From Sphingobacteriaceae bacterium (GTDB lineage: Bacteria; Bacillota; Sulfobacillia; Thermaerobacterales; RSA17), in assembly GCA_035303785.1 (NCBI GenBank), contig DATGRI010000021.1:1-34450 (forward strand): DNA of 34,450 nucleotides, read 5' to 3'. The number at the start of each line of letters is the position of its first letter. Position 1 is the first letter of the stretch. Both the position numbers and the translations under genes were made by a program. This document shows, in pieces, positions 9,081-10,983 of this stretch. The notes under the pieces are model-generated. The model was not told where the DNA came from and made no database searches. It saw only the letters and a list, made by a program, of their open reading frames with translations.

Positions 9081-9983
9081 TTGAAGGCGGAAGTTGGCGT
9101 CGCCCCCGGCTCCGTTGCAGGCACCATCCGCGACTACGTGGCCCTGACCAAGCCACGCATCATCGTCCTGCTGCTGATCACCACGTGGGCCGCCATGCTG
9201 GTGGCTGCCCGCCAGGCGCCGCCTGCCGGGCTCACCTTGCTGACCATGCTGGGCGGCGCCCTGTCGGCCGGGTCGGCCAACACCTTGAACATGTACTTGG
9301 AGCGGGATCGGGACCAACTGATGGACCGGACCCGCAACCGTCCCCTGCCCTCGGGGCGGCTGGCGCCCGTCAACGCCCTGGTCTTCGGCATAGTCCTGGG
9401 CGTTCTTTCATTTGTAATCCTGGCCGTGGGGGTCAACCTGGTGGCAGCCTTGCTGGCCACCGCCGGTCTCTTGTCGTACGTCTTCATGTATACGTGGTGG
9501 CTGAAGCCCCGATCCGTCCACAACACCCTGGCCGGCGGCATCGCCGGGGCCATGCCGCCCCTGGTAGGCTGGGCGGCCATCACCGGGCGGGTCGATCTGG
9601 CCGCCGTCTTCCTCTTCGCCATCGTCTTCTTTTGGGAACTGCCCCATACGTGGGCCCTGGCCACCCTGCGCCTGGACGACTACGCCCGGGCAGGCTTCCC
9701 CATGATGCCGGTAGTGGCGGGGCTGCCCAGCACCCGGCGCCAGTCCATGTTCTACTCCATCATCATGGTGGCCTCCAGCCTGGGCTTGTACTTCACCGGC
9801 ACCTTGGGCTGGCTCTACTTGGCGGCGGCCGTGCTGCTGGGGGGCGGCTTCCTCTACAGCGCCTGGCGCTACCTGCGGGACGAGGGGATGGGCGCTGCCA
9901 AGCTGCTGTTCCGCTACTCCACCCTGTACCTGGCCTTCCTTTTCTTCGCCATGGTGGTAGACGCCGTCTTGCCCACCACGTGA
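9081..9983 (+). CDS. ctaB: Protoheme IX farnesyltransferase (heme O synthase)
   Basis: This integral membrane prenyltransferase attaches a farnesyl group to heme b, giving heme O for cytochrome oxidases. The 300-residue protein (family about 280-310) has the KPRI start motif, then ANTLNMYLERDRDQLMDRTR with RPLPSG, the polyprenyl-diphosphate/Mg binding region, and about eight to nine helices. A second Asp-rich loop (TLRLDDYARAGFPMMP) is present. The TTG at 9081 follows AGGTGA at 9069-9074 with a six-base gap. No oxidase subunit gene is in the window. The gene stands alone behind a 12-bp repeat array and ahead of the non-coding palindrome array. Confidence 0.93.
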   Translation: MKAEVGVAPGSVAGTIRDYVALTKPRIIVLLLITTWAAMLVAARQAPPAGLTLLTMLGGALSAGSANTLNMYLERDRDQLMDRTRNRPLPSGRLAPVNALVFGIVLGVLSFVILAVGVNLVAALLATAGLLSYVFMYTWWLKPRSVHNTLAGGIAGAMPPLVGWAAITGRVDLAAVFLFAIVFFWELPHTWALATLRLDDYARAGFPMMPVVAGLPSTRRQSMFYSIIMVASSLGLYFTGTLGWLYLAAAVLLGGGFLYSAWRYLRDEGMGAAKLLFRYSTLYLAFLFFAMVVDAVLPTT

Positions 9984-10089
9984 CGGGGGAGGGGTTTCCC
10001 CTGGGGCGTGTTGCAGCCTGCCTTTGACGACCTGCCTCCGGCCGCCGGTCCTGCCTCGGGGGGTACATGCCTGCTGCCTAGGCCCCAGC

Positions 10090-10141
10090 CTGACATGCTA
10101 AGCACCCCTGCTGCAGTCTGACATGCTAAGCACCCCTGCTG
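10090..10141. repeat. 24-bp direct repeat at the edge of the palindrome array
   Basis: CTGACATGCTAAGCACCCCT plus CTG occurs at 10090-10113 and identically at 10118-10141, separated by four bases. The second copy runs into the first 21-nt palindromic unit of element A. The first copy holds only the left half of such a unit. This looks like a short tandem duplication at the boundary of the element. Confidence 0.9.
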
Positions 10142-10320
10142 GGCTTATGGCGCCGGTTTTGCCCCTCTGCCAGCAGGTAAAGCCCAGGAAATGGGCTTAT
10201 TTCGGCTATTTTCCCCGATCTCGAGCAAGATTTCCAGGAATAAGCCCAGCGCATGGGCTTAGCTTTCCTTTTCTGGTTGTTCACAGGGAAATAAGCTGCT
10301 TTCCTGGGCTTAAGGGTTTC
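10127..10320. repeat. Palindrome-rich repeat element, copy A
   Basis: This copy, of about 194 bp, contains four 21-nt imperfect palindromes of the form TAAGC-N10-GGCTTA at 10127-10147, 10179-10199, 10241-10261 and 10292-10312. The best is TAAGCCCA, loop GCGCA, TGGGCTTA, an 8-bp perfect stem. Unit starts are 52, 62 and 51 bp apart. Conserved linkers include GCAGGTA before unit 2 and GGAA(A) just before units 3 and 4. The DNA is richer in A+T than its surroundings and codes for nothing I support. It could be an interspersed repeat, a structured RNA or an array of protein-binding sites. I do not recognise it as a named family. Confidence 0.8.
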
Positions 10321-10417
10321 ATCAGTCAAACTCGGTGCCGTTGCAGCAGTGGATCCGCCACCCGGCGGCTGGGATTATCATCTCTTTGCTCCATGGTTCT
10401 GAGAGGGTGCCCTAGGC

Positions 10418-10611
10418 GAAGCACTCTCTCTGAGCTTATTGCGCCCTTTGGGTGGTTCGGGCGGCAGGTATAGCCCAGATACGAGGCTTATTTCCTGCCA
10501 TTTTCACTGGGAGAGGCCAATTCCTGAGGAATAGGCCCACTACATGGGCTTAGCTCGCAATTCCAAGCTATTACACGAGGAAATAAGCACACTTGGTGGG
10601 CTAATGGGTTC
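10418..10611. repeat. Palindrome-rich repeat element, copy B
   Basis: This is a diverged copy of element A at a constant offset of 291 bp (292 at the last unit), alignable almost without gaps. Its four 21-nt units lie at 10418-10438, 10470-10490, 10532-10552 and 10584-10604, with start spacings of 52, 62 and 52 bp. Shared blocks include GCAGGTA, GGCTTATTTC, CATGGGCTTAGCT and GGAAATAAGC, while the bases between them differ widely. Unit 3 reads TAGGCCCA against TGGGCTTA, so one A-U pair of copy A becomes a G-U pair in RNA. The 10321-10417 stretch between the copies shows no repeat or gene. The element ends about 20 bases before a possible sigma-G promoter. Confidence 0.8.
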
Positions 10612-10662: not shown

Positions 10663-10680
10663 GATGAGGAGGTGATGTCT

Positions 10681-10983
10681 GTGGCCAGACCGCCGGTGGT
10701 GGTGCGGCGCCGGCAGCGTCCCCGGTGGCAGGTGCCGCCGTCGCTGCCCAGCAGGCCCGATCCCCTGTACCCGTTGAAAATCAAGATCGTGCTGGACTTG
10801 GGGCTGCTGGAAAAGGTGCGCCGGGAAGGATGGGGCGGCCTCACCTCGGCGGAGTCGGGCCGGGTCGGCGGTCTGATGACCAAGCGGCTCAAGGGAGCCA
10901 GGCAGGCCTTGCGCCTTCGGCCGGGCCCTGCCAGGGGGATGGCCGGGGATGCGGTGAATGATATGCGGGCTCAAACCAAGTAA
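10681..10983 (+). CDS. Alpha/beta-type small acid-soluble spore protein, divergent
   Basis: Alpha/beta SASPs coat and protect DNA in the dormant spore. The 100-residue product has the family core GWGGLTSAESGRVGGLMTKRL at residues 50-70, preceded by the expected helix (LKIKIVLDLGLLEKV). The GTG at 10681 lies eight bases after AGGAGG of a perfect AGGAGGTGAT at 10667-10676; the ATG at 10675 overlaps that site and is unlikely. Compared with typical SASPs of 60-90 residues, it has a basic Arg/Pro-rich N-terminal tail (about 30 residues) and a basic C-terminal tail. The Glu-Ile-Ala site normally cut by the germination protease is replaced by K-I-V. A promoter resembling sigma-G lies upstream. The family call rests on one motif but is fairly specific. 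Confidence 0.75.
   Translation: MARPPVVVRRRQRPRWQVPPSLPSRPDPLYPLKIKIVLDLGLLEKVRREGWGGLTSAESGRVGGLMTKRLKGARQALRLRPGPARGMAGDAVNDMRAQTK

Follow-up and report, generated by a model that had tools for sequence, protein, structure and literature searches.

A phased four-palindrome repeat linked to a predicted DUF559 nuclease/winged-helix gene in Bacillota

BIMEs are dispersed intergenic mosaics of palindromic units in a defined orientation, and in nucleosome-like or multi-dimer wrapping complexes, such as those of the Lrp family, phased sites and an AT periodicity of approximately 10 bp suit the wrapping of DNA. In REPIN/RAYT systems a usually single-copy gene has cognate palindromic repeats beside it, while more copies are dispersed in intergenic DNA; the repeat sequence is lineage-specific, and several distinct pairs may coexist in one genome (PMC3116915). 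Here we analyse an array of phased palindromes in a stretch of 34,450 nucleotides (the window) from a genome of 1.64 Mb in 69 contigs (G000, the source genome), together with its relatives in that genome and beyond.

Architecture and genomic distribution of the element

The window region 10127-10604 contains two tandem copies, A and B, of an element of approximately 190 bp, each with four of the eight 21-bp inverted repeats (table 1). The gene on one side is cyoE, that on the other encodes a small spore protein, and a codon model finds no coding across the repeats. The units are spaced 52/62/51 in copy A and 52/62/52 in copy B, with an offset of 291 bp between the copies and 126 bp from the last unit of A to the first of B. 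This is the arrangement that the original prediction had described, and its spacings, offset and gap all hold. In contrast, the unit form that it gave, TAAGC-N10-GGCTTA, is literally exact in three of the eight units (those starting at 10127, 10241 and 10292), while the remaining five are at least one base off. Likewise, the 126 bp that it read as 12 helical turns between A and B was measured correctly, but other tandem copies are 61, 83 and 93 bp apart. Just upstream of copy A the left portion of A unit 1 appears again, in a 28-bp direct duplication (10086-10141; CAGYCTGACATGCTAAGCACCCCTGCTG twice). The alpha/beta-type spore protein gene at 10672-10983 suggests that the host is probably an endospore former.

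Table 1. Coordinates of the two elements, their flanking genes and the linked gene (window positions, except the last line)
Feature	Position	Strand	Remark
Copy A, four-unit element, including 3 bp beyond the outer unit at either end	10124..10315	.	Conservation and AT periodicity stop at about -3/+3 of the outer units
A unit 1, TAAGCACCCCTGCTGGGCTTA	10127..10147	+	
A unit 2, AAAGCCCAGGAAATGGGCTTA	10179..10199	+	
A unit 3, TAAGCCCAGCGCATGGGCTTA	10241..10261	-	TTCC flank on the inner side, hence reversed relative to units 1-2
A unit 4, TAAGCTGCTTTCCTGGGCTTA	10292..10312	-	
Copy B, four-unit element	10415..10607	.	
B unit 1, GAAGCACTCTCTCTGAGCTTA	10418..10438	+	
B unit 2, ATAGCCCAGATACGAGGCTTA	10470..10490	+	
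B unit 3, TAGGCCCACTACATGGGCTTA	10532..10552	-	
B unit 4, TAAGCACACTTGGTGGGCTAA	10584..10604	-	
cyoE/ctaB (haem o synthase), flanking host gene, outside the element	9081..9983	+	
Alpha/beta-type small acid-soluble spore protein, flanking host gene, outside the element	10672..10983	+	PF00269, 24 bits, cut-off 22
Predicted DUF559 nuclease/winged-helix protein gene, beside one of the 20 copies	C10:10350-11003		

The palindrome array is far beyond chance. Over both strands of the genome the exact unit pattern occurs 23 times against 0 for the reversed pattern, and TAAGCCCA-N5-TGGGCTTA with up to two mismatches is found in 47 places, again against 0. A sequence model of half-elements identified 20 elements with all four units, distributed over 15 intergenic loci, besides which the genome-wide search gives only two degraded traces. 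Each element is composed of four 21-bp dyads TAAGCCCA-N5-TGGGCTTA at 52/63/52 bp (±1), and since units 1-2 point in one direction and units 3-4 in the opposite one (as read from TTCC-type flanks), it is mirror-symmetric. The spacing stays within 52(51-53)/63(62-64)/52(51-53) in 20/20 elements: the first is 52 in 19 and 53 in one, the second 63 in 16, 62 in three and 64 in one, and the third 52 in 16 and 51 in four, which amounts to 5, 6 and 5 turns of the helix at about 10.4-10.5 bp each. Far from being randomly spaced and without palindromes, which would have counted against the original prediction, the copies elsewhere in the genome keep both palindromes and spacing.

Tandem duplicates are present at five loci; linkers are alike in C19a/b, C50a/b and C50d/e and mostly unlike between different loci. 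By hand tally six loci lie between convergent, five between co-directional and three between divergent genes, and one at a contig end, and no function common to the flanking genes was found. Mapped onto the chromosome of a complete relative of the same order (G002), with partial coverage, the loci are scattered, with no clustering at the origin or terminus, and do not show the origin-proximal grouping of sites of a ParB/parS-type centromere. The origin- or partition-like role once considered is thus unlikely, given copies that are scattered and whose positions turn over between genera. Three of the 15 loci have an isolated tRNA gene no more than 160 bp away (L008 3409-3483, Val; L010 2933-3006, Ala; L014 2921-2994, Thr), which is not clearly over expectation. 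At L009 3084-3225 (C28), two or three degraded units approximately 60 bp apart stand between two intact elements and perhaps represent a decaying element.

Conserved spacing, changing half-sites and the linked gene

The search of the whole genome and of related genomes proposed with the original prediction recovered, besides the source elements, the same architecture in relatives. The exact motif of the source half-site has no real match in 40 relatives, and a sequence model of the source element (R1) gives nothing beyond background in 150 class genomes. A further scan used no motif, asking for four similar dyads at 52/63/52, and anchored patterns were used afterwards. In the motif-free scan, a sister genus of the same family (G001) shows the 52/63/52 architecture with the half-site TAAGGCAC, with nine distinct elements in the part read, about half its genome, against 0 with permuted half-sites. 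Anchored patterns revealed 52/63/52-type architecture with other half-sites in two genomes of other families, G067 and G039, and the 1.2 Mb read of G002 contains no element. Four matches to the source half-site came from a genome-contig collection; three are due to chance, and the fourth sequence (L021, Paenibacillus whitsoniae) holds a four-unit element with another half-site. A viral match is also due to chance, and L110, from a phylum-wide pattern search, is a minisatellite. We set aside G009, which has four TAAGTATG-type palindromes at 52/51/52 between atpC and a DUF885 gene (L093 1528-1703), with GGTTAACATAAC in a linker, and no detectable homologue of the linked protein described below. 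Linkers of G067 and G001 (L090 1658-1688 and 1710-1751; L080 1011-1052) share GGTTGACATAA(C/G), a motif similar to a Xer-type half-site or to a -35 box that was not seen in the source-genome elements.

The positions of the copies differ between the two genera. Ten source flanking positions have orthologues in the G001 DNA read, and a TAAG-type element is present only at the one adjacent to the linked gene; the other nine loci checked are unshared. At the M23/tRNA-Thr/TrmI locus, for example, the sister genus has approximately 90 bp where the source genome has 431 bp with an element. Unshared positions together with a retained gene-adjacent copy indicate that copies have been gained or lost, in the manner of a dispersed repeat that has a resident gene.

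The gene in question encodes a 218-aa protein, P0003, and is followed by the C10 element; in G001 its orthologue has an element 16 bp downstream, composed of the different half-site of that genome. Gene-adjacent elements occur in G000, G001 and G067, and in the last the element downstream of the gene, TAAGCCAA-N5-TTGGCTTA at 51/62/51, is the best one observed. Full-length homologues of P0003 are found in 4/154 class genomes (G000, G001 with three, G067 and G039), exactly the four with 52/63/52 elements, a coincidence of 1 in 22.5 million if genomes are independent and somewhat less striking given that G000 and G001 are relatives. A search of a plasmid collection further identified homologues on a 2.7-Mb replicon of Paenibacillus cellulosilyticus, where one gene copy is flanked by 9 units on one side and 14 on the other, at 51 bp. 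A second copy lies 640 bp from a 14-unit array of a different palindrome, also at 51 bp, and the first motif has an array approximately 0.8 Mb from the gene to which it belongs. Ten more homologues come from four genomes, probably of Paenibacillaceae (a placement made in part from the P. cellulosilyticus match); six of the ten have an adjoining motif-free score of at least 50, and 51/62/51 elements, each with its own half-site, stand beside Paenibacillaceae homologues. Overall, a score of at least 50 is reached at 10/17 gene loci versus 1/68 background blocks, and the sole background block is a genuine dispersed element in P. whitsoniae. This four-unit score replaced a pair-based control that was affected by N runs and unspecific in GC-rich DNA. 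Weaker four-unit arrangements at L211, L213, L218, L219, L220 and L225 score near background, and one G001 gene copy (L212) has no clear element. Behind one homologue gene, L217 2198-3539 holds four tandem 51/62/51 elements, recalling the tandem pair of the window. In G001, CAGGTCC-type inverted repeats (L075:9069 and L212:2259-2345), one set at 52/64/51, are possibly the cognate motif of the second paralogue. Half-sites differ by lineage (TAAGCCCA, TAAGGCAC, TAAGCCAA, TAGAGGCG, TAGGTGCA and others), several paralogues with different palindromes occur per genome, and the distribution of the gene is patchy.

P0003 joins a C-terminal winged helix to a region that matches the nuclease domain DUF559 (PD-(D/E)XK-like). 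Matches to DUF559 are weak, at 17-22 bits: PF04480 reaches 22.5 bits in P0003, above the cut-off of 20.6, exceeds it in L212, L213 and L211, and falls under it in L209 and L210. D69, E82, D84 and H89, which include acidic residues of PD-(D/E)XK type, are invariant in seven homologues, as are G85, R104-Q105-N106, D111, W113, R117-F118 and D121. An AlphaFold2 model (mean pLDDT 78) has a helical N-terminus, then an alpha/beta part, then the winged helix; Foldseek/PDB matches are mainly winged helices, of MarR/IclR type, and the nuclease matches are very weak. We thus regard the protein, from its domain match and conserved residues, as a putative nuclease of the DUF559 / MTES_1575 family. PADLOC gives it no match better than E 0.04, Cas proteins included.

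Helical periodicity and rival readings

AT-rich minor grooves on one side at every turn are a signature of bending or wrapping DNA. Pooled half-elements show an AT/GC period of 10.25 bp all along their linkers, in register with the units, which the flanks lack; the linker-interior power is 0.44 vs 0.009 +/- 0.007 in permuted data (0/500 permutations). The linker sequence has diverged, yet the periodicity is present in it and stops at the element ends. The AT profile of the sister genus correlates with that of the source genome at 0.56 over the interior (0/2000), and the periodicity appears again in a set of G067 and Paenibacillaceae elements (0/1000); it recurs, then, in other lineages despite different half-sites and linkers. 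The element is probably a DNA-wrapping, multi-dimer target.

The units might instead be transcribed and form hairpins or, as the original prediction also allowed, a switching RNA, given that inverted repeats exist and that GGCTTATTTC can pair with GGAATAAGCC. When the left half of each of 80 units is compared with the reverse-complemented right half, their identity reaches at most the value expected of independent halves at 8/8 positions, and mismatch counts in the two half-sites correlate at -0.25. The RNAalifold covariation term is -0.01, mismatched half-sites are common in the sister genus, and the element has no credible Rfam match; it has neither of the marks looked for in a structured regulatory RNA, covarying stems or an Rfam family. 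Covarying stem pairs, named as a check with the original prediction, are likewise missing, with no compensatory change in the 80 units, and the A-U to G-U stem change once pointed out does not generalise. Since the half-sites of a unit do not covary, they are DNA sites rather than RNA hairpins: independent half-site variation is expected if a protein dimer reads them, and contrary to a maintained hairpin. We give the RNA reading practically no credence, and only a sliver more to the view that these dyads, although of operator size, serve the regulon of one ordinary transcription factor, which would explain neither flanking genes without a common function, nor six loci between convergent genes, nor the strict set of four sites with fixed spacing that every locus shows.

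A binding array that serves the host is a more serious contender, albeit an unlikely one. The element would then organise the chromosome or anchor supercoils, with the nuclease inactive or used in repair and the copies kept by selection. The wrap-like periodicity would suit such a role, as would copies that are scattered over the chromosome, intergenic and often between convergent genes (6/14 placed loci), and all complete (20/20) despite diverged linkers, with no lone or half elements elsewhere. Against it stand element positions that are not conserved between the two genera, a copy number that varies widely and includes local tandem duplicates, the invariant nuclease residues and the patchy gene distribution. 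Improbable in our view is a defence or self-marking module, in which the winged helix would hold the nuclease on chromosomal arrays, while array-less DNA is attacked or the arrays buffer the nuclease level. A nuclease joined to a DNA-binding domain of lineage-specific specificity, and several paralogues per genome with different palindromes, would fit this scheme. However, the PADLOC search is negative at the level given above, no defence neighbours occur among the flanking genes examined, and no phage or viral homologues or elements were found.

Proposed explanation and comparison with known systems

We propose that several dimers of one dedicated DUF559 nuclease/winged-helix protein bind the element of approximately 190 bp as a composite target. 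Each of the four dyads of approximately 21 bp would take one dimer, all on one face and 5, 6 and 5 helical turns apart, and AT-rich minor grooves every ~10.25 bp on the same side would help the DNA to curve toward the protein; a single wrapped, mirror-symmetric complex of four dimers with ~190 bp might then form. The nuclease domain may act on DNA in or from this complex, and by doing so could have let copies spread into intergenic sites, functionally like REPINs with their RAYT. We infer binding, wrapping, cutting and mobilisation alike, and give this explanation as a whole a probability of roughly 0.6. That the element is the multi-dimer target of the linked protein is very likely. The suggestion of cooperative binding by a dimer on one DNA face, made when the phasing was first noticed, is strongly supported by the 5/6/5 turns in 20/20 elements, the independent half-sites, the in-phase 10.25-bp AT period and the linked winged-helix protein. 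That the protein also spreads the element is put forward more tentatively, at somewhat less than even odds. No target-site duplications were seen by eye at the element ends, nor were closely related empty sites found, and the copies have diverged strongly from one another, which argues against recent mobility.

The open-access literature searched contains no description of such a gene-element pair and nothing that joins DUF559 with palindromic repeats. Chances are about even that the pair stands for an undescribed class of gene-repeat systems in Bacillota, in which a DUF559/winged-helix protein would assemble several dimers on phased palindromes in a nucleosome-like wrap and spread its own target, recognition and element would drift together in each lineage, and one genome could hold a number of independent pairs. 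The sequence of a bacterial element here reveals helical phasing over 18 turns, which can be traced across lineages in which the half-site has changed. With one small protein and a fragment of 190 bp it becomes possible to test how protein and DNA co-evolve, how several dimers wrap DNA and where dispersed bacterial repeats come from.

Among known systems, complexes of Lrp type share the phased sites and the AT periodicity of approximately 10 bp, but here the dyads are sequence-specific, at 5/6/5 turns rather than about three, and the protein family is different. The regularly repeated palindromes that adjoin the putative nuclease gene in Paenibacillus recall CRISPR arrays; unlike these, the linkers are not foreign spacers, the units vary and number four per element, each period comprises a whole number of turns of the helix and no Cas match better than E 0.04 was found, and we reject that assignment. 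Set against MITEs, which have terminal inverted repeats with target-site duplications and a transposase elsewhere, the element shows mirror symmetry and, by eye, no duplications at its ends. BIMEs, as mosaic REP clusters, are similarly dispersed, intergenic and made of oriented palindromic units, whereas here there is no REP consensus, spacing is strictly 5/6/5 turns and the linked gene belongs to another family. The resemblance to REPIN/RAYT goes further: cognate repeats flank the associated gene (here of a different family), copies are dispersed in intergenic DNA (here 20 elements at 15 loci), the repeat is lineage-specific and several distinct pairs can coexist. Nevertheless, the protein is of DUF559/winged-helix type rather than an HUH (Y1) transposase, the dyads are double-stranded sites without conserved hairpin pairing, and four units at fixed helical phase take the place of two REPs. 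Y1_Tnp (PF01797) has no match in the source genome, while control genomes do match, and with no maintained hairpin pairing either, REPIN/RAYT proper is rejected. If our explanation is true, the pair would represent a second, independently evolved solution to the REPIN/RAYT problem, that of a nuclease gene living with scattered small repeats.
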